This document shows positions 11,653 through 40,500 of a stretch of 64,000 bases of DNA, in pieces. Location of the stretch: NCBI GenBank assembly GCA_015039365.1, contig WION01000188.1, positions 42,073 through 106,072 on the forward strand. The letters run 5' to 3'. A program made the translations under genes and the position numbers. How positions within the stretch are numbered: the first letter of the stretch is position 1; each line of letters begins with the position of its first letter. This DNA comes from Amanita rubescens (Eukaryota > Basidiomycota > Agaricomycetes > Agaricales > Amanitaceae). The notes under the pieces were generated by a model. That model had not been told where the DNA came from and searched no databases. It saw nothing but the letters and a program-made list of their open reading frames with translations.

Positions 11653-11810
11653 CGACACTCATACCAGCGCATATATTGTCAGCGATATCGCAGCCGCACA
11701 TACCGTATGCTAGTCCGTATATAATGATGGCCGACACTCATACCAGCGCATATATTGTCAGCGATATCGCAGCCGCACATACCGTATGCTAGTCCGTATA
11801 TAATGATGGC
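11653..11810 (+). repeat. perfect 79-bp tandem duplication
   Basis: Positions 11653-11731 and 11732-11810 are identical 79-bp units beginning CGACACTCATACC. The second unit covers the stop codon region of the neighbouring minus-strand F-box gene. Identity suggests a very recent slippage or repair event. Confidence 0.9.
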
Positions 11811-12898
11811 CGATAGGCAGAATCATTATAGTAAGCATACCTGTCAATATGCCGAGTAGACGCAGCCGGGGTCAACACTAAACGCTTGAATATCTCGACG
11901 TCTGCATAGCTGCTACAATGCAATGCTAAACTGTCCATATGTGGCAGGACAATCGAGGGTTCGGTATCAGGTAGGCTGGAAAACGTAGCATCGGAGGTAG
12001 GCTTTAGAGCACAACTGACAAGGGACATCCCTTGGCGTAAGATTACATTAAGACACGTCATAGACGGTATATCGAATTGAAGGAAGAGTTCCTTCAAGTT
12101 ATGCCAAGGTACCGCCGTAATCAGCTTCTCGAGATGCGTTGCAAAGCAGTTGCAGAAAGTGAGATCTACGAGGCACGGAAGTCGGGGTGGGAGACGTAAA
12201 GTGTTTGCAGGGATGGTGTTCGGATGGAAAGGGTGAGTACGTTCTGTGCCACTGCCATCTGAGCAACCAATGTGGAGTTTTTGCAAGCGTAACATGTGCT
12301 CGGGTGGGATTTCTCTAAGGGTATGCATTTCATCGAATTTAGGCGCAAGGCGTAGTTTCAGAAATGTGAAAGGTGCAACTAGGTGCTTCACAACGTCAGA
12401 GTGATAGACATCGTAGTTACAGAGTGATAGTTCTGTCCTGGGAAGGGAGCCACCGCGGGTAAGCCAAAGGTGGAATAAGCGAAGTCTGGGATAACTCCTG
12501 TAGTGAATATTGGCAACGGTAGGCAATTGCTTGCCGTATCCGGCACTATGAAGCGTCACTCGCAATGGAAACTGGGCCCAGATATGAGGCATGTCCAATA
12601 TGGTGTGCCGCCATGCAGAGCACACATATGACAAGACCAAGGCAGGATGTTGACCGGATATAATATCGAAATGAGGGTTCACTATCTGGCACATGAGATC
12701 GAAGATGATTCGCAACACATCTTCTGGGAGCCCCATGATGTGGGATGGAAGTGCGAGAGCTGTTTCGCATGTTGCAATATCCTTTTTAAGCTCTGGATTT
12801 CGTTCCTCAGCGATGAGCGCCTCTCGGTTGGATATCTCTTCTTGGGATGAGTCGTTGGTAAAGCCTACGCCTATGTCTCTTAGATCTGTAGCCATCAC
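11789..12898 (-). CDS. F-box protein of the mushroom type, about 369 aa
   Basis: A short helical N-terminus (EEISNREALIAEERNPELKK) precedes a clear F-box, GLPEDVLRIIFDLM, followed by the typical agaricomycete continuation SYVCSAWRHTILDMPHIWA. The remaining 270 residues are leucine-rich in the pattern of degenerate LRR blocks, as usual for this family, and probably bind the substrate of an SCF ubiquitin ligase. The start is the ATG at 12898; a possible 5'UTR intron lies at about 12910-12955. The reading frame runs through a good donor (GTATGC, about 11841), so the last 16 residues and the stop at 11789 may be read-through into an intron or a truncated 3' end. The region there is rearranged by the 79-bp tandem duplication. 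It is divergent from the F-box gene starting near 13125, sharing about 230 bp of 5' region. Confidence 0.75.
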   Translation of the reverse strand: MMATDLRDIGVGFTNDSSQEEISNREALIAEERNPELKKDIATCETALALPSHIMGLPEDVLRIIFDLMCQIVNPHFDIISGQHPALVLSYVCSAWRHTILDMPHIWAQFPLRVTLHSAGYGKQLPTVANIHYRSYPRLRLFHLWLTRGGSLPRTELSLCNYDVYHSDVVKHLVAPFTFLKLRLAPKFDEMHTLREIPPEHMLRLQKLHIGCSDGSGTERTHPFHPNTIPANTLRLPPRLPCLVDLTFCNCFATHLEKLITAVPWHNLKELFLQFDIPSMTCLNVILRQGMSLVSCALKPTSDATFSSLPDTEPSIVLPHMDSLALHCSSYADVEIFKRLVLTPAASTRHIDRYAYYNDSAYRPSLYTD

Positions 12899-20580: not shown

Positions 20581-23500
20581 ATGGCAGCTACAACTGCACC
20601 TTCACTAAGTAAGCTAATTTGTGTGTCCCAGCATTGTGATTCCTTGGCTGACACACATCAGATGCAGATGAGACACAAGTTCAAATGCTCAGGGAACGTT
20701 ACCTATGCCCACACTTTCACATCCTTGTCATTGGGAGGGCTAATGCAGGCAAAACAACCATCCTGGAGAAGGTTTGTGGTGTAGCAAAGGGGACAAAGCC
20801 CATCATATATGACAAGGATGGTAAGTCAGTCTGTTTGTGCTTCCTTTGACTATTGAGTTTCTTGCAGGTAATCTGATTGAACAGTCTGAGATTCATTTGA
20901 TGTCATCACTTGAGGTGAGTTGCATAATTATGTACAGTATAGATGTGCCAATTCACATGCAATGATAACAGAGAGGCCTGCATGATATTGAGCATCAAAT
21001 TACATACCCTGGAAGTAACTTTATCTTCCATGACTCTCAGGGTTTTGAGTCTGGTTCAACTGAGGAATTGGAGATTGCTTGGAAGTTCATTGAAAAAAGG
21101 TCTGCAGAAACTGATATGAAGAATAGGCTCCATGCAATTTGGTAACTTGCTTTATCCATTTACAGTACTGGCTGACCTTCTTCTAGGTACTGTATACCCA
21201 TGGACAGCCCTCGTCCCATTCTACCTGCAGAACTTGAATTCTTCAATCAAGGGACAGGCAGAGGTGAAGTCCTAATGAGCTCATGTCTTATCATGTTGGT
21301 TTGGAGAGGTTGTTTATTGCTGCATCCTCTTCATTGGCCAAATTTCCACAGTGTACTGACTAGAAAACATTCCATTTACAGTTCCTTTGGTGGTTGTCTT
21401 CACTAAATTTGATGGTCAGATAGCCAGTGAATTTGTCAACTTGACTGGTGCAAAGGATGAAGATAAGTGGGACAGGGCCAGGGAAATTGCTGAAATCACT
21501 TTTCAGAAAGTTTATCTTCCTAAAGTTTTGGATGCCAAACATCCCCCCAAGGCATATGTGCGATTGGAAGGCAAGAATAATGAGAATTGCTTCCTGAAAA
21601 TGAGAGTAATGTTATTTCATAGACATGGATTTACCAGAGATGAATTGTGCTGAATTAACTCGACAAACTGCAGATGCAATAGATGATAGCAGCATACAAC
21701 AGCTATTTGTTTCAACACAAATGAATAACCTTGACCTTTGTGTTAAATCTGCACTTCAGTGAGGGTCACATTCAAGATGTTACACACATATGTACTAACA
21801 TTGACATTGTTCAGACATATTCTGAGTCATAAAACTTGGACATGGAATTATATCATTCTCATAGTGTTTTCAAAATTTCCACATTTCTGGGTATGCATTT
21901 TTGCAAACTGCACATCAACATGAAAAACTAAATGGCAATAGGTGGACAGGGACCCAGAGGTAGGTGACCTTCAAATGGAATGTTAATACCTTCCAAAAAT
22001 CCACCAGTTGAAAGTAAGTATCCTCCAATGCATTCACATGAAAACAAGACTAGTCATGCTTCAGATCCCCATGGGTGAACCACAGGTTAGTTATCACCAT
22101 ATTCTTCATAGTAGGATCTGATGTTGTTGATATAGTGGGTAAGTCACAACATTGATCTAACATAGATCTCATATATCATCTCATGACAATAGTTTGTGAG
22201 TAATACTCCCTTTGTGATTGGCAGTCTTGTCCCATAATCTACAGGAAGTGAGTGGGATGACTCAACTTTGATTTGTGGTGAATGATCTGATTGTGCATTG
22301 GCAATAGCAAGTGAGTTATTTTATATCATTGTAAGCAGACTCATCAATGCAGTTCTTGTGGACAGGGAGTGAGTAATACAACACTGCTTCTGCACCACAT
22401 CTGACCTGCTGAAAGAAAGTGGGTAACATTGGTGTTTGTGCAGCTCAGTCATATGTAATTCAATGAACAACAGAAAGTTGTGACACATTATTATCTCAAT
22501 GAGAGTCTCAACAATTTCATTGGATTTATAACAGGAAGTAAGTGGGATTTCTTTCTGCTTATAAACATTACATTTGGTCTCAAAACAACAGACAGTAAAT
22601 ATTTCTCCTTTTCAAATCCTCTTCATGATGTACTGAAAAATGAACAGGATGTATGTCATTTTTTTGTGAGATGTAAATTCACCACATGAAATACTATGGC
22701 AACAGAGAGTCAGTGGCATCATTTTCTTTCATCATGATGCTAATTTCATTTTAAAAGGAAGTGAGCCATTCTGGTTATCCTGCTGTAGGACAATTTGGAC
22801 GCATCCTTTTGTTCTACAGATTGTAAGCAATTTTGCAAGTTTTGTGAAAAGCAGTGAAATTACATATTTGAGCATAGAAGGTTAGCAGCATGTCATGCTG
22901 GTTTAGTGGCTCAGAAGATGACCTTATCAAAATTTTGCCTATGGCCAACAGTCTGTGAGTAGCATTTTGCAAGTATTTCTGAAAACCTGTTCTATGTATT
23001 TTTTCTTTATAACTGACAGGATGTGAGCAACACTGAATTTTGTGGAAAGGCAGTTTCACCACATCATTTCCAATAACTGACAGTATGTGAGTGACATTCC
23101 ACATGATGCTGTGAAAGGCCATCTCATATCTTTTCCTATGACCAATAGACTGTGAGTGACATTGCACATTTGGTGAAAGGAAGACTCCTCACATCTTTCC
23201 TATGACCAACAGGGAGTGAGTTACATTGCAAATGCTGTGAAAGGCAGTCTCATAACATATTTTGCTATGACCAACAGCTTGTGAGTGACATTGCACATTT
23301 TGTAAAAGGCAGCCTTATTGGCCCATCATCTCATCTCATATTTTCTTATGACCAACAGACTGTGAGTGACATTGCACATTGTGTGAAGGGCAGTCTCATC
23401 AGACCGTTTCCTATGGCCAACAGGGAGTGAGTGACATTCCACACCTTGTGAAAGGCAGTCTCATCACATCTTTTATTATGACCAACAGCTTGTGAGTGAC

Positions 23501-26449
23501 ACTGCAAATTGTGTGAAAGTCAGTCTCATCATATCTGTTCCTATGACCAACAGTTTGTGAGTGACATTGCACATCTTGTGAAAGGCAGTCTAATCACATG
23601 TTTTGCTACAACCAATAGTCAGTGAGTGACATCCTGAAAGGTGGTATGACGATCCATCATATCCTATGATTAACAGGTTGTGAGTGCATGGCACATTTTG
23701 TGAAAGGTAGTTTCATCATATGTCCAACAGTTTGTGAGTGACATTACACATTTTGTGAATGGAATCTCACTTTTTTATAACCAATAGGGAGTGAGTGGCA
23801 TTTGCAAATTTTGTGAAAGTCAGTCTCATCATGTCTTTTCCTATGACCAACAGAGAGTATGTGAAATTGTACATCTTGCAAAAGCCAGGCTCATCACATC
23901 CTTTTCCTATGACCAACTTGCAGCAAGTGAGTGATATTGCACACACATATCTGAAAAGCAGGCTTGTCATATCTTTTGCTATGACACAAAGCAAGTGAGT
24001 GACATTGTACATTTTGTGAAAGGCACTCTCATCACATCTTCTCCCATGACCAACAGTTTGTGAGTGATATTTCACATTTTGTGAAAGGCAGTCCTACTAT
24101 CACATCTTTTCCTATGACCAACAGGGAGTGAGTAACATTGCACATTTTGTGAAAGGCACACTCATCACATGAATATTTTGCTATGGACAACAGCTTGTCA
24201 GTGACATTGCACATTATATGAGAGTCAGTCTCATGACATCTTTTCCTATGACCCACAGCAAGTGAGTGACATTTCACATTTTGTGAAAGTCAGTCTCATC
24301 ACATCTTTTTCTGTAACCAACAGACTGTGAGTGACCTTATATATTTTGTGAAGTGCAGTCTCATCACATCTTTCCCTGTGACTGACAGGGAGTGAGTGAC
24401 ATGCACATTTTGTGAAAGGAAATCCCATCAGATCTTTCTTATGACCAATAGCAAGTGAGTGACATTGTGCATTGTGTAAAATGCAGTCTCATCACATCTT
24501 TTCCTATGACCAATAGCAAGTGGGTGACATTGTACATTATGTGAAAGGCTGTCTCATCACATCTGTTCCTATGACCAACAGACTGTGAGTGATTTTGTGA
24601 AAGATAGTCAGATCACATTGTTTCTTATGACCAACAGGCTGTGAGTGACATTGCATATTCTGTGTAAGGAAGTGTCATCATATCCTGTGTTGTGGCCAAC
24701 AGACTGTGAGCAACATTGCACAATTTGTGAAAACCTGTCATATTCAGCTTTTCTTGTGCCCACAGCGAGTGAGTGATATTGCATATATTGCAAAAGCCAG
24801 TTTCATCACATCCCCCCCTATGACCAAGCAAGTGAGTGGTATTGTACATTTTGTGCAAGCCAGTCTCATCATATTTTCTCCTATGATCCATAGTATGTCA
24901 GTGACATTACACATTTTGTAAAATGCAGCCTCATCATATTTTTTTCCTATGACCAACAGCAAGTGAGTGACATTGCACATCAGTGAGAGTTACTCTGATC
25001 ACAACTTTTCTACGGCAAACAGTTTGTGAGTGACATTACACTGTGAAAGCCAACCTCACCTCACCACATCTTTTTATGACCAACAGGAAGTGAGGGACAT
25101 TGCACATTTTGTGAAAGGCACTCTCATCACATCTTTTCCTATGACAAATAGCAAGTGAGTGATATTACACATTTTGCAAAAGGCACTCTCATCCAATAAC
25201 CCACAGCAAGTGAGCCTTGGCCACATTGCACATTTTGTGAATGCAGTCTCATAACATCTTTTCTTATGACCCACAGCTTGTGAGTGACTTTGCACATTTT
25301 ATGAAAGGTGGTCTCATCACATAATCTCCTTTGACCAACAGACTGTGAGTGACATTGTACATTTTGTGAAAGGCAGTCTTGTCATATCTTTTGCTATGAC
25401 CAACAGGAAGTGGGTCACATTACACATTTTGTGAGAGGCAGTCTCATCACATTTTTTTCCCTATGATCAGCGTGTGAGTGACACTGCACATTTTGTAAAA
25501 GGTAGTCTTACCATATTTTTTATGACCAACAGTGGGTGAGTGACATTGCACATTGTATGTGAAAGGCAGTCTCATCACCTCCCTTCCCTATGACAACAGC
25601 AAGTGAGTGACATTGGCCATTTTGTGAATGGCAATCTCAGCACATTCTTTCATGTGACCAACAGCAAGTGAGCAATATCACACATTTTGTGCAAAATAAC
25701 TTCATCACATTTGTCCTATTACCAATAGCTTGTGAGTTACATTGCACATTTTGTGCAAGGCAGTCTCATCATTTGTGCTATGACCAACAGGAAGTGAGTG
25801 AAATTTCCAATTTTCTGACATGCATTCTCAGCATACATACCTTCATTCATGAAATCACCATATCAGAAAGTGAGTGTGTTTCCATATTTTTTCCATATCT
25901 TCTTTTTACATTATTACCATCATAGATTGTAAGATTTCATTTCAACTGACCTATTCCCACCTATTGGTTTGCATCCTAGTGTGTAGGTCCAATGATACAT
26001 TGAATGTATTTCACTCTATCTCAGTACCAGCATGAACTTTTCCTCCTGTTTGGAGATGAGGAAAAGGACTTTGCCATTAAGGTTTTTTTGTTTTTTTTTT
26101 GTTTAGTACAGAACTAATGCCCTTGCAACAAGCCTTCTCACTTCCAGGTCTTAGTTTGTAAATTATTCCTTTCCATTTACTGCAGTTATGCTTAGCCCTT
26201 CAAGCAATTAATATCATTGCCAAGCTATCCTTTTGGATCAATAAACCATTTGTATCATCAGTCATAGGAGCCTTGGATCTGTACAACAAAAAAGGCTATG
26301 TGCAGAAGCTGAAGACTGACATTACTCCCAACTTTATGCACTCTGGTCATCATGACTTTGTCACATTACTCTATAGGGAGGTGACTCATATTGATGGTAT
26401 GTAATTTATCTAGTCATGCACTACTTATGAACAATTTATGGCAGGGTGA
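20581..26449 (+). CDS. P-loop GTPase with 61 single-codon exons, about 466 aa
   Basis: Exons: 20581-20608, 20662-20820, 20868-20914, 20972-21141, 21187-21263, 21382-21570, 21623-21758, 21815-21890, 21942-21959, 22008-22013, 22065-22074, 22112-22134, then 61 three-base exons (22193-25982), 26025-26081, probably 26148-26153, 26186-26396 and 26445-26449 (stop). The sum is 1401 nt, in frame throughout. G motifs: G1 GRANAGKTT (residues 34-42), G3 DSQG (99-102), G4 TKFD (168-171). This is the mushroom family annotated as G-domain or P-loop proteins, of unknown role. After the G domain come FVSTQMNNLDLCVKSALQ, a hydrophobic stretch ending FPHFW, the microexon-coded Q/E-rich segment of 61 residues, then YQHELFLLFGDEEKDF and an amphipathic tail. 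The intron at 21571 is GC-AG; the intron at 22075-22111 is only 37 nt, and its placement is the least certain. The gene lies in an AT-rich island unlike its flanks. Confidence 0.82.
22193..25982 (+). repeat. array of 61 single-codon microexons and intron-unit repeats
   Basis: Each unit is a 32-75 nt intron beginning GTGAGT (or GTAAGT, GTGGGT, GTCAGT, GTATGT, GTGAGC and similar) and ending ATGACCAACAG-like, followed by exactly three bases and the next donor. From about 23087 on the introns are recognisable copies of one unit (GTGAGTGACATTGCACATTT, then TGAAAGGCAGTCTCATCACA). Codons and first positions: CAA 22308, 23924, 23992, 24259, 24452, 24517, 24829, 24960, 25152, 25207, 25600, 25665; GGA 22366, 23213, 23424, 23788, 24125, 24389; ACT 23149, 23359, 24324, 24582, 24703, 25342; GAA 22245, 22535, 22758, 25087, 25407, 25791; CTT 23278, 23489, 24194, 25277, 25729; TTT 22193, 23554, 23731, 24057, 25023; AAA 22416, 22474, 25867; AGA 22706, 23854; GAT 22648, 23020; TAT 23084, 24894; ATT 22820, 25926; and once each ACA 22592, AAG 22878, TCT 22952, TCA 23619, GTT 23677, GCT 24638, CGA 24766, CGT 25471, TGG 25533, TGT 25980. 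No stop codon. Phase 0 at both ends. Confidence 0.88.
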
Positions 26450-27301
26450 AACATATGCATGATATCCAGGTGATTTGTTAGACACATTGCCTTTTCATCA
26501 AGATCATATTTATTTGTACATAGATACTTCTCATATGTGTTCCCTTGGTTGTTCACATCTGTCTCAAGTTTACTTTATGATGTAGAAATATATGTGGTTG
26601 TTAGCGATATGCCCAGGGATGGATCAGATGCAAGAAAAATGTTCCCATAAGATGGTGGCTCCTCCTGCAAGGCTGCAAGTGTAAAGACATAGCAACTTGT
26701 TGACTTGCAACAAGCATGTGATGCCCAATCAGGATTCAGCATTAATGTGAACTTAAGAAGTTATGTATAATAAAGAACTGTTTTCCTTTTAAGTAAATAT
26801 ATGTACCATTCCCACAATAGCTAAGGAATTAGTGGTGTATTTTTTTGAGATGTAAAGGGAACAATATGCAGCCTCCAAACATGTAACAGTCATACATATC
26901 ACATTATAATCTGCCCCTAGAAAATGTTTCCCTACTTACTCTGATCAATTTGTCATAAATTATGAAGCTTTGTAACACTTGAGTACCAGTATCAAAACAA
27001 ACAACATTTGGATATGACTTTTTTGTTTTGGGCAACATTCATTTTTTGCACCTACTCTGCTACCTAGCATGATTGCATATAAAGATTTTATGCAACTACT
27101 GCACATCATGCACCCTGCATTAACACAGGAAGCTAATAGTTGGTTGATCATTAGTGTCTTTTGGGAGTGGGGAGATCAATAGAAGTGAGCAGCAAAGAGC
27201 TGATACCTTAATTCCAGTCAATTATCATGATTGAGAGTGTTGTTCAAGTGATATATTTCTGACAAGCAACAAGTGAAGACATACATAATCATCATGAATT
27301 C
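26450..27301. other. AT-rich 3' flank of the GTPase gene
   Basis: No gene supported. The AT-rich composition of the island continues to about 27290 and then changes abruptly at the 3' end of the F-box gene. Confidence 0.5.
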
Positions 27302-29289
27302 TCAGCCAAAATGGAATACAGTCATCTTCTCAACATCCAAGCCCTCGACAATCTGCCAGCCATAAGTATACATATGTAATAAGCAAAGCCATACCTCACA
27401 CATACCTTTAAACCAAACACACTCTCATCATCCATCAACCACAGATGATGCCAGTCATACACCTCTGGAGCCGTGTATATCGTACAACCCAATCCCATCT
27501 CAATCTCCTCTGCAAAAAGATTACCATGATCAAAGTAGTCCCCTTTTCGTCCTACAACCAACCAGCCTGGTAAATTATCTTGAGCATTGTAGACATTATA
27601 AGGGTTGAAATTGATTATGCTGACTCGGTATCTTTCATCATCGTCATCAACGGGCGCAAGACGTGTCCATCTTTGTCCGGCAGAAGTCATAACCGTGGTT
27701 CGAGCCCTGTTCCCGGCATCGAGCCACCTTGAAATAGGTGGTCCCCATTCAGACCAAGGAATTGAGTTCACGCTATATGCCTCTCCAGAGGCTTCCTCAA
27801 CGTCCATGGCAAAGGATAATGAGTATGGCATTCCAGAGTCGTTATAATTCATCGCTTTATTGAAATGATGCCGGACATCGAATGGGGGAGGCACGCCTGT
27901 CCGTGTGAGGTTTGCGATAGTTTCTAGAAGAGATCGGCGGCGCATGAACAGAGCAAATTTTGGGCCAAATTGATTTGGGGAAATATCAATGCTGACTATG
28001 GTCATGATCATGGTTTCGTCCGCAGAAGTGTGGAATGGTTTAGGTGAAGTGCGTAGCGTGTTATGTGGGTTAGGTCGACCACGGCAATCATGAAGCCCGA
28101 CGATAGAATGTCCTTTTGACAGAGTCGGAAAACGAAGAACTAACGCCTGATATGGAACGCTATCTGCTTCCTTGGGAATCTTCCAAACTTCGTATTGGCT
28201 CTCGATCACGTTGGGTACGAGAAGTATTTGAGGTGATACGAAAGTAAGACTAGAGTAGGCTCCCTCCGAAGTTTCATGTTGCTATCGCAAAAAGGGCAAT
28301 ATTTAGGAAAAAAGAGGGAGACGGATTAGTGTAGCTGCGTACCAATCTCTTATGGCCCGTCTTCCAGTCGAAGATAAATAGTTGTCCCCCCCCAAGAGCG
28401 TCAATTAGGAGAGCAAGATTGTCTCCAGCGATTTCCAGCATCCAAACATACTGATCTATTTCGTAATCTTCAAGTCGTACGTCTATTCGTGGACGGTGAG
28501 CCAACGGATGGTATTCTCCGGTGGAGAATTGGAGAAGAGTCATGTATATTGAATAGCCTCCTTGATCGTCATCCGACCACCTGGCATTTGAAGTGAGAGG
28601 TGACATTCATAAAACAGGTTTTGAAGAACGCACGAGTTGACGATCACCATGAGATCATGTTCTTCAACGGCCATGCCTACCTCAAGGATATTTACACGGC
28701 TATGATTCCAGTTCTTGATTGGAGCATGGCCGGGTACGGTTGTCCATCGTAGAACATCGTCGGGTGTGGATGGGAGGAAGCAATAGTGCACGTTGTGACC
28801 CTCTCTATCGCCGTACAGATAGACGCCAGATGTCAAGTCGCATATGGAAATTGGCTTATATACATCATTAAACGTCTTTATAAAGGCTGGCTGAAACCTG
28901 CACCATGCCTTCTCTCGCTTCATTAGAGCCTCGTAGCGTTTCGCGAACGAGAGTGTGCAATACGGGTTGTCAACTACGCCTGCCGCATGACAGGCCAAAC
29001 GATACCGTAGAATGACCGAGGAAAGTATGAAATCGTTGATTCGCCTCGATACCAGGGTACACTTTCTGACGTCTTCGGCGTCTAGATACAGGAAAGTTTG
29101 TTCGAGCAAATCGTGGGGGAGTGCAAGCAAAGTAGTGGGGCTACTTATGCGATAGATTAAAAGGACATAAAGGAAAACAGGCGTGTGGACGAACTTTGCA
29201 AAAACCGCACTCCGAGTCACTACGGGACAAGTAGCTCCAGTAACCTGGTCGCGAGCGCTCATTAGCGGCTGGCCGTGAGTTGATTCCAT
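27302..29289 (-). CDS. F-box protein, intact founder-type copy, 584 aa
   Basis: Five exons: 29289-29195, 29140-28634, 28580-28343, 28263-27400 and 27352-27302, with introns of 54, 53, 79 and 47 nt; the sum is 1755 nt, all phases agree. The F-box is at about residues 34-75: LLALPHDLLEQTFLYLDAED, then VRKCTLVSRRINDFI. Later blocks shared by all copies are the HAAGVVDNPYC segment, LPSTPDDVLRW, FIFDWKTGHKRL, PWSEWGPPISRWLD, FNPYNV, EIEMGLGCTIYTAPEVYD and a final TVFHFG. The C-terminal domain is not a recognised repeat fold. By family it is a substrate adaptor of an SCF ubiquitin ligase. The start at 29289 (MESTHGQPLMS) was preferred to the in-frame ATG at 29799 because homology to copy 1 begins there. 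The first intron explains a hydrophobic stretch that would otherwise look like a membrane helix. Only intact member of the family in the window. Confidence 0.82.
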
Positions 29290-37529: not shown

Positions 37530-40500
37530 TTATGGCGCAAACCACCAGAGGGTAGTCACTCCGACGGGGAACGTATAAGTCGCCTGCAGGCCACGAAATT
37601 CGATAGTCGCAGTCATCGGTTCTGTAAGCCATACACCGTCGATGTTATCATTCCCTGGCATTCCCGCTTAGCAGACAGGATCAATGGAATTGGTCAGCAA
37701 CTTACAATTCAGCACAACGATGGAATATTGTTTCCAGCTCTCAGGGTTTACCCTGTTCACAACATAGGCGCCGACATTCAGGGCCCAGCTCAAAGATCCG
37801 CCGACCGTGACGCCGATTCGTTGGCCGAAAGGACCATCAGGATCCTTGGGGGTGATGGCCTTGGACGCTTGCGCCATGGACCAAACTATGCCAAGGTCAT
37901 GATCAGCCTGGAATGATACAACTGTCAAATGGTGCAACGTACATTCTTGGTTGAGTATATAGCGCCCCTCACTATATACTGTCACTACTGGTCGACATCC
38001 GCCTCTACAGCTGTTTGTTCCGGGGAGCATCGGATGACCAGATTCATCCAGCGCCAAGTTCCACATGAGAGCCTGATAGACATGTCAACTAGGGTTTTGA
38101 GCGAGTAAAGGTGTCCTTACCGTCCGCGCCCAGTTCTGCAAGCTCCCAATAAAACTATCATGACATCGTTACAAACAGCCTAGTGTTCAGCTATGACCTT
38201 ACATGTTGTTCATGTACCACTATGCGCGCGTCAGTTGGAGTTAGCATAACACAAAAAGGCTATAAGTGCCTTTATATCGCCCCACCAATCAGAACCGTAA
38301 GTACCGGTGCATTCGGTAAAGTATATCTCCTACGACTACATCAGCAAGTGATCGCATTTGACTAAATTGACGACCTTGTTCGGGTAAGCATTGTAGAAAC
38401 TTTGCTGCTTGGAGACAGAGCCAGCATAACAATGGAACGCAGCGCCCGCAAACGCGTTGGGCGCGTATTGCATCTAACGAAAGGTTGCCATGTGACGGGC
38501 TCTCGTATTCAAGAACTTTGTACATACCACCTGCACAGGATAAGTAGCGGCGTCATTCCAGTTATGCTAAGCCACGTGTCAGCAAGAAATGACGCTAGCA
38601 ATAAACCTTGGAGCTTAATGTCATACTTCGTAAGCAACGATCTTGACGCTTGCTAGCCCATTGTTGTTCAACAGTGACCTTAGTGCATTTCCTAGCAGAG
38701 CTTCGACATTTGGTGAGATTGTACATGTTGGATAAGTCGGGTTACTATTCTGTGGCTCGTTCTACGTTGACGAATACGGTTAGCAATTTCGCTGTTACGC
38801 AACAGGCCTCTGTAAAGAATGAGGCCGCAAACACCGATATTAAACTCGTAAGAGCCTTATCAGGCTCCTTGACTACATATATTTAGAATACTAGAGTACT
38901 TAAGCCGAGCTTGTACTCGTTACCGTAGGATTTCTCTAACCCTTTGACTACGCATCTCTACGCGTGATCTCTCTCTTTCTCTCTGGAATCCTCCGTTGGA
39001 GACATTACCTTTCGTGCTTACAGCTTCGATAGGCTAAGTCTTCACATTTTTTTGCGTATAAACTACTCTTAGAAACCCTACAAGGCTTCCAAAGGGCTTG
39101 ATCACCCCCGACGTCGCCTCAAAACAAACCAAAACAACATCAAAAAATTTTTTCTCTGCGTTCACCGACAATGACAACGAGAAGAACTACAAAACCAGTC
39201 GACAGCGACCTTCGCGCCATGCCCGGGGACCTGGCCAAGGAACTAGAGACAACATCCAATCGCCGCAAGTCGCGATACCAGACACACAACGTCGTGGCCC
39301 AATCCGATGTAGGTTTTGTCACTAATGACCTAGGTAATAAATGGGGTCACGACGGCGACGATTCCGAAAATCCGAGACAGACGCCCGCTGGACAGGCACG
39401 ACGGGAGCCGGCACACAACTCCGTCCCGTTGAATCGACACATCGCCGACTTTTACTGCCACGTCACGCGTATTGTCGAAAAACTTGACAATCCAAATGAG
39501 TCTCAACTCACGGCACCAGCGCTGGAGAATTCGACACGAGAATTCTCCGAGGACATTTCCCACTTGAGCGGTGAGCTCGTGGATGCCAAGGAGTGGCGCT
39601 TGAGCGGCGAGCTCGCCCACAACAACTCTCGCTTGAGCGGTGAACTCGCGACTAGGGACTCGAGCGGGGAGCTCGTCCCCGAGAAGTATCGCTTGAGCGG
39701 TGAGCTCGCGGCTAGGGACTCGAGCAGCGGGCTCGTCCCCGAGGAGTTATCAGCCCACTTGAGTGATAATCTCGTGGCTAAATCTGGGGCCGACCTGGAG
39801 GGCGGGTCTCTCGTCCGCCGCCCCGACCTAAGCCGACTACAACAACATGAGTCGAGCGACGACGAGGCCCAACTGGGACCCCGTGATAACCAACTGAGTG
39901 AGGACGACTGCGAAGTTGAATACTTCCCCACTCGGGCGAGCATCGAACCTCCTCGTTTACCTGAAATTGATACCAGTGATGACGAAGACCTCGTAGATGA
40001 ATTATTAAGTAAACTACGAGACATATCTGATATGGAATATGAACCAATTCATGTTATGGCTGTCATACTAGAACTTGGAGACGAAGATACAAAAAAGGGA
40101 GCCTCGTCTCCTAGGCTAACTACCGAAATGGAGGGCGGGTCTATTTATGAACGAAAAGGAAAGAATGTTGACCCCCTCGAGACCGGTCCGCGCTACTCGG
40201 GCTTTAAGCCCAAACTGAAAAAACTTGAAAAAAAGAAAGCCTCGGAGTCTAACTCCCTGTTCCATCAGAGGCCTGAGCACTTCAGACGTGACGACTCGGA
40301 GAAGCCTGACGGCGGTTGGTTCCGAGCTACAACTAAAAAAGCGGACCCTAGTCCACCTCCTTCCTCGAGTGACTCGGAGTCCGACGAAGGAAATGGGCAC
40401 GGACCACCAAGTCCGCCGGGCCCCGACTCTTCCGAAAATGAAAGCGATGACTCTTCCGTGTCGTCCAAGGCTTCGCCGAAGGGACGTAATCATAAGAAGG

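Follow-up and report, generated by a model that had tools for sequence, protein, structure and literature searches.

Can a protein-coding gene be divided by spliceosomal introns down to single codons, dozens of them in a row? This question is raised by a gene on the forward strand of Amanita rubescens DNA, within a stretch of 64,000 nucleotides (hereafter the window) that lies on contig C99 of an assembly of 75.7 Mb. An initial annotation, made from the letters alone, had described 61 consecutive exons of exactly one codon inside a GTPase gene; the series proved real, but its count is 62, as the codon TGG at 22136–22138 had been missed. We conclude with high confidence that the gene belongs to a large A. 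rubescens GTPase family with a spliced, coding linker, in which nearly each codon is its own exon and which changes in units of codon plus intron.

The window gene model has 76 placed exons, is open from 20581 into the exon 26205–26396, and contains 74 GT-AG introns and one GC-AG intron. Its inferred start lies in a first coding exon (20581–20608, MAATTAPSL) that was chosen by eye from locus L044 and the public open reading frame (ORF) P0003. The GTPase domain, placed by the gene model and homologues, spans 20662–21758 in six exons (20662–20820, 20868–20914, 20972–21141, 21187–21263, 21382–21570 and 21623–21758). It is in this part that the GC-AG intron lies (21571–21622). An exon reading HILSHKTWTW...SKFPHFW follows at 21815–21890 and aligns to the ORFs P0003 and P0047. 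Three small exons then lead to the array, 21942–21959 (VDRDPE), 22008–22013 (6 nt, LK) and 22065–22085 (IPMGEPQ), and here P0003 aligns as VDRAVTNE-QLSETK, followed by W. These take the place of an upstream exon at 22112–22134 proposed by the initial annotation, which falls within the intron 22086–22135. On the 3' side of the array, the exon YQHELFLLFGDEEKDFAIK (26025–26081) aligns to P0037, the exon PSHFQVLVS (26133–26157) has a counterpart in ORFs with PTDCQVLVS, and the C-terminal part INIIAKLSFW...VTHID (26205–26396) is matched by several ORFs ending in VTHIDG; a donor GTATGT at 26397 probably leads to a further last exon. A single frame runs from VDRDPE-LK-IPMGEPQ through 62 triplets into YQHELFLLFGDEEKDFAIK.

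The model carries the motifs GRANAGKTT and TKFD, which we take to be G1 and G4 of a P-loop GTPase. A Pfam search with the window gene model gave no match at 0.001, and among 42 homologues, 36 had weak MMR_HSR1 matches at E≤0.01. Judged by its sequence, the window gene is predicted to encode a P-loop GTPase of translation-factor-related type, with the linker preceded by the G domain and its FPHFW extension and followed by the C-terminal segment KLSFWINKPF. The gene stands in an AT-richer island: G+C per kilobase is 36–40% at 21001–27000, 43% at 27001–28000, and 45–55% in the other kilobases of the window. Elsewhere, the window holds a perfect two-copy 79-bp repeat (11653–11813) and a 2.4-copy 60-bp repeat (39602–39747).

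The array itself, placed by segmentation, the spacing test and the gene model, occupies 22136–25982 and consists of 62 one-codon exons and 61 intervening introns. In the gene model, the exons start at 22136 (TGG), 22193, 22245, 22308, 22366, 22416, 22474, 22535, 22592, 22648, 22706, 22758, 22820, 22878, 22952 and 23020; at 23084, 23149, 23213, 23278, 23359, 23424, 23489, 23554, 23619, 23677, 23731, 23788, 23854, 23924, 23992 and 24057; at 24125, 24194, 24259, 24324, 24389, 24452, 24517, 24582, 24638, 24703, 24766, 24829, 24894, 24960, 25023 and 25087; and at 25152, 25207, 25277, 25342, 25407, 25471, 25533, 25600, 25665, 25729, 25791, 25867, 25926 and 25980. The 62 codons translate as WFEQGKKETDREIKSDYTGLTGLFSVFGRQQFGLQTGQQTATRQYQFEQQLTERWQQLEKIC, with Q (12), T (7), E (6) and G (6) the most frequent residues. 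All 62 exons in the model measure 3 nt, are in phase 0 and include no stop, so that they are tandem symmetrical exons, and the description of the triplets as stop-free and in phase 0 holds throughout. The 61 introns between array codons are 47–78 nt long, and retention of any single one would produce a frameshift or a stop in 56 of the 61 cases. The array introns are all GT-AG in the model, GTGAGT being the donor in 40/62 and AACAG the acceptor in 31/62; TRAC occurs at −30 to −4 of the acceptor in 36/62, a count made without a chance control.

Three parts can be distinguished along the array. The 5' part (22136–23022), 16 codons reading WFEQGKKETDREIKSD, is conserved, with similar codons in paralogues and in the ORFs P0003 and P0047. 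Repeats of ~65 bp, each an intron plus a codon, were delimited by Tandem Repeats Finder at 23037–25830. The 3' end (25867–25982) is conserved as K I C, encoded by AAA at 25867, ATT at 25926 and TGT at 25980, and the linker ends in LEKIC in the window gene, EEKIC in P0186 and LKIC in P0122. The predicted spliced product reads WFEQGKKETDREIK...LEKIC between SKFPHFW and YQHELF.

The regularity of exon size was assessed with a profile-free spacing test, which counts [ACT]AG-N(k)-GTRAG[TC] for each k. On the + strand of the array, k=3 occurred 47 times and k=0–2 and 4–15 not at all; the pattern was absent from the array − strand. Outside the array, the window has k=3 once on the + strand and twice on the − strand, with 0–5 occurrences of other k. 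Across 200 mononucleotide shuffles of the array, k=3 had a mean of 0.115 and a maximum of 1. A chance origin of the three-base spacing is ruled out by this test (47/47 at k=3 against a shuffle maximum of 1). Segmentation with free exon length, a 44-nt minimum intron and softer profiles returned 59 of 62 window exons at exactly 3 nt. Together with the spacings, this bears out the uniform three-base size claimed at the outset. The exceptions were at 22474, where the exon came out at 6 nt, at 22889 (17 nt) and at 25980 (1 nt). They were assigned as AAA, AAG and TGT, the first two (22474, 22878) from paralogue positions and the last from ORFs ending in KIC; in three of the 62 window exons, donors are weak or ambiguous. 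When the profiles were sharper and introns could be as short as 36 nt, 50 of 57 window exons were 3 nt and several long exons appeared instead. In both runs the splice-site profiles had been trained on AG-NNN-GTRAG sites, and on the intron side only, whereas the spacing test is independent of profiles.

An array of this kind could be a 65-bp minisatellite in which AG-NNN-GTGAGT is fortuitous and which is removed whole, inside one large intron. The tandem repeat at 23037–25830 is in keeping with this, as is the annotated A. rubescens protein P0081, which is without the linker. However, the repeat does not extend to the 5' units, which are nonetheless three-base, with codons nearly as in paralogues, and the family at large speaks against it. 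A C-terminal exon probe of the assembly gave at least 150 scored matches among 223 candidates, which seem to include both haplotypes, and a 28-nt unit junction had 2,324 matches with up to two mismatches. A genome-wide count between two constant flanks, CCAACAG and GTGAGTGACATT, gave 1,214 exons of 3 nt; since both haplotypes and related copies are included, these counts are not independent events. Between the same flanks, there were 17 exons of 0–2 nt (14 on C749 and 3 on C13) and 15 exons of 4–8 nt; nine of these measure 6 nt and the other six 4 nt, C749 holding three of the six. Among the fixed-flank triplets, TRA occurred once against 671 of VRA and TAG never, giving one stop in 1,214. The sole exception, a TGA, belongs to an array on C537 that contains a TAA and a 2-nt exon besides and is therefore probably a decayed copy. 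The third exon base is C or G in 59 of the 1,214 triplets, as against 9 of 13 conventional exons of the window gene that end in G.

Individual loci gave the same picture. From the searches, 44 loci were taken (2.5–3.2 kb, mostly covering part of an array) and 42 were segmented, L034 and L035 having too few strong sites. No stop was found among 760 three-base exons (35 different exon strings from L001–L044, some of which overlap). Free segmentation returned three-base exons in proportions of 57/64 for L041, 64/68 or 64/67 for L042 and 65/70 or 66/69 for L043, the last two depending on the longest intron allowed. The proportions were 54/56, 22/22 and 22/24 for L050, L051 and L052, whose C-terminal exons are only 45–51% identical to that of the window gene, and 64/65 each for L054 and L055; in L051, the repeated intron has a different sequence. 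Under a single setting over 16 loci, 763 of 813 exons were 3 nt, the other 50 being partly mis-splits and partly real. Exon size, phase and the near-absence of stops thus hold for the family, and divergent paralogues share the design. For the family, we reject removal of the array as one minisatellite-bearing intron on the strength of exon sizes, stops and the ORF P0122, which has the codons of a genomic locus in order; we regard that reading as close to untenable. One-codon coding exons are the reading we pursue here.

The evidence from P0122 merits a fuller account. Public ORFs on short contigs (source jgi, 1–2 kb) cross the linker uninterrupted. P0122 is one such ORF of 156 aa on a contig of 2,135 nt, and the loci nearest to it by C-terminal exon are C207 and C278, with 92% each. 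Segmentation of C207, made without P0122, gave 65 exons, all but one of them 3 nt long and the remaining one 6 nt. Of the 66 linker residues of P0122, 61 are identical in C207: 59 are read via one-codon exons and QP via the one 6-nt exon, the final I and C being taken from the fit that tolerates mismatches. In all, 59 codons of C207 are included, in order, in a relative's intron-free ORF. The two differ by two substitutions (D/E and K/R), by an extra Q, E and Q in P0122 and by an extra K in C207. The fit scored +52.9, while ten shuffled peptides gave 21–28 matches and negative scores; among 53 locus peptides, C207 scored 276 against P0122 and the next 45. When mismatches were disallowed, the fit placed 20 of the 66 residues before it broke off, compared with 1–4 for 20 shuffles. 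Two apparent stops in the P0122 fit are picks shifted by 4 nt beside GAA and CGA, which the segmentation reads as GAA and CGA.

The C207 codons matched by P0122 span 4,039 nt of genome, more than the whole P0122 contig, which would therefore have to derive from spliced RNA or from a spliced copy. The short ORF contigs are inferred to be RNA-derived, being without introns, with P0122 shorter than the genomic array. One-codon exons would accordingly be expected in mature RNA, for C207 through P0122, given its presumed RNA origin, and for the window gene by homology. Removal of the stretch as a single intron, which the initial annotation had named as the outcome contrary to it, is contradicted for the C207 relative by P0122. 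The proposal that the triplets are in-frame exons gains support from the family-wide exon size, the near-absence of stops and the passage of P0122 through 59 C207 exons.

Other ORFs are informative over shorter distances. P0003, P0047, P0172, P0173 and P0186 have pre-array sequence and a WF start, and the last three also have the C-terminal part. At the position of the window's WFEQGKKETDREIKSD, P0003 and P0047 read WFEKGKKESDREIEYD and WFEHGKKDTDKQIVYD; past the array start, both continue in sequence of ambiguous frame. P0196 and locus L053 can be matched by eye, DDYN-W-E-R-F-RQKDP in the former standing against DDYN, W, E, G, F, RQKEP in the latter, and upstream of DDYN the two disagree (VDRKDNQ in P0196; VDRK, N, D in L053). 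P0122 and C207 are the only pair of ORF and locus matched over a whole array. A search for an A. rubescens counterpart of the P0037 linker region in one continuous frame gave no match, an outcome that carries no weight either way. A search for the locus of P0172 reached at best 68% among the matches listed, and the other thirteen linkers gave weak or first-part alignments to the compared loci, a set from which their own loci are absent.

If each exon is a symmetrical codon, single codons could be skipped in frame, and the array could act as a cassette for combinatorial splicing that yields many linkers per gene, as in schistosome micro-exon genes. The layout of the window array (62/62 exons of one codon in phase 0) would allow this, and P0037 and P0040, which are 89% identical, have differing linkers. 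P0037 and P0040 may, however, be separate genes, and P0122 retains nearly all C207 codons, with no sign of skipping in this sole ORF–locus pair. For the K of C207 that is missing in P0122, a sequence difference suffices as the explanation, because C278 differs there too; C207 and C278 have different codons and codon numbers, and P0122 fully matches neither. We consider combinatorial splicing unlikely, albeit with a real chance of playing a part.

The window gene could also be a silent or decaying copy. Decayed copies exist in the family, as on C537, and copy number is high. The model is nevertheless open through its 76 placed exons, with introns that are GT-AG in 74 cases and GC-AG in one, and a second copy of the gene on C715 has an identical array. 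Over the ~5.9 kb that were compared, two substitutions separate the copies (26142 and 26301); these lie 3' of the array, and the C715 copy is probably the other haplotype. A silent window gene is improbable in our assessment, and we treat the gene, with its 62 codons, as an intact family member. P0032 and P0081, both annotated A. rubescens proteins from this family, end before the linker or skip it, P0081 being the one that skips.

How could such arrays arise? Copies of one intron might have spread in the manner of introner-like elements and invaded a continuous exon after every codon. Young arrays, with identical 62-nt introns and different codons between them, agree with this; the conserved codons WFExGKK could hardly be derived by duplicating one codon; and L053 is mixed, with one-codon exons among exons of 12, 15, 18 and ~69 nt (the last read by eye). 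Yet introns would have to enter after each third base, always in the same phase, for which we know of no mechanism, and the 65-bp periodicity and single-codon differences between copies fit tandem duplication for later growth. Intron spread of this sort has some chance of being correct, although we doubt it.

Change by whole units of intron and codon, as we prefer to read the arrays, can be followed in closely related copies. In the young array L025, all 11 introns are identical, with 9 different exons among 12; unit exchange, selection and assembly blending are all possible sources of identical introns with different codons in such arrays. The near-identical copies on C769 and C228 differ by 8 substitutions in 5,075 columns, four of them in two codons (ATC to CGA and GGA to CGA) and four in array introns. 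The change from ATC to CGA, made without a neighbouring change, suggests an exchange of whole units. A comparison of conserved codons among paralogues (codon letters 419/438 identical, intron interiors 5,007/5,905) was not relied on, as it is biased by patterns that restricted the codons and by a mis-hit in L043. The arrays L049 (C749:1400–5200) and L041 (C13) contain exons of 1, 2 or 4 nt, with introns of a nearly constant 62 nt, and in the C749 array 29 of 44 exons are 3 nt. These odd sizes may reflect decay of the copies, blending in the assembly or indels limited to the exons; if the assembly blends units, the CTA that is common on C13 would combine CAA with CTT. Targeted codon hypermutation, prompted by the young arrays and the exon sizes on C749 and C13, was not accepted, since assembly blending or unit exchange would look alike. 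In locus L040 (C97), a long, apparently open stretch at 1–2160 with a CCHC-like motif (by eye) precedes an array without the 5' part and may be a retroelement gag.

The closest known system is that of the schistosome micro-exon genes (MEGs), whose exons are several codons long. In MEGs, the coding region is reported to consist mostly of very small symmetrical exons, permitting variants by alternative splicing (PMC4350168). The likeness of the window array to those of Schistosoma lies in the exon layout of tandem symmetrical tiny exons; in A. rubescens, by contrast, each array exon holds a single codon and dozens follow one another, in a fungal GTPase family. Single 3-nt micro-exons are described for Drosophila homothorax (hth) and troponin T and for rodent NCAM, with the internal hth exons between CAG and GTGAGT or GTAAGT (PMC7392893). 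They share the one-codon size but are isolated, whereas those of A. rubescens come serially by the dozens. Exons below codon size are spliced as well, as reported for a 1-nt exon in Arabidopsis APC11 (PMC4674806) and another in Fusarium CYP621A (PMC12940212), and these again are single exons and not in series as in A. rubescens.

The introns also have relatives. Introner-like elements multiply across genes, and the A. rubescens arrays resemble them in their near-identical introns, whole introns being identical in young arrays. In contrast, the A. rubescens copies follow one another head to tail with a single codon between them, and were seen inside one gene family. For fungal introner-like elements, near-identical introns in many copies are reported (PMC4457414). 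A further likeness concerns sites near the array 3' end (L040, L043, L051 and others), where AG|GTGAGT or AG|GTGAGC, with zero bases between acceptor and donor, parts the I codon from the last codon. The zero-gap AG|GTGAGT was found in 16 fetched loci with a strict pattern and in 25 with a looser one, some of these loci being overlapping or allelic; L009, L010 and L039, which hold the window gene, did not fit the strict pattern. With no exon between acceptor and donor, the site looks like a recursive (ratchet-point) splice site. Drosophila ratchet points reportedly lie in long introns (PMC8605326), whereas A. rubescens introns are short. A search of the open-access literature, with most subscription-journal papers outside its coverage, found no series of one-codon exons. 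We rate isolated 3-nt and 1-nt exons and the schistosome MEGs as already known, and dozens of one-codon exons in series, as an extreme of tandem symmetrical micro-exons, as new.

The proposed mechanism would start from short spliceosomal introns of ~62 nt flanking nearly every linker codon. Each intron, with its strong GTGAGT donor, may be recognised as a unit by intron definition, as is usual for short fungal introns. Because introns would be recognised as units, exon size would hardly matter and 3 nt would be tolerated; as 3 nt of exon leave no room for two spliceosomes, neighbouring introns would be removed stepwise. The array would grow, shrink and change by units of intron plus codon through recombination between the repeated introns, and as each gain or loss involves a whole unit, the frame would be kept. 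More tentatively, and at rather less than even chances, single codons may be added, removed and swapped between units or paralogous loci, with identical introns as homology arms; the linker would then be hypervariable and the GTPase family immune-like or devoted to recognition, and codon skipping might widen the variety. The immune-like or recognition role is a guess prompted by copy number and linker variability.

The joining of dozens of one-codon exons in order would mark a limit of gene fragmentation. The arrays may serve as a natural test of intron definition and of the order of intron removal, and also of whether recombination between introns edits a protein residue by residue. Gene predictors can miss whole protein segments of this kind, as P0032 and P0081 illustrate for the linker of this A. 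rubescens family.
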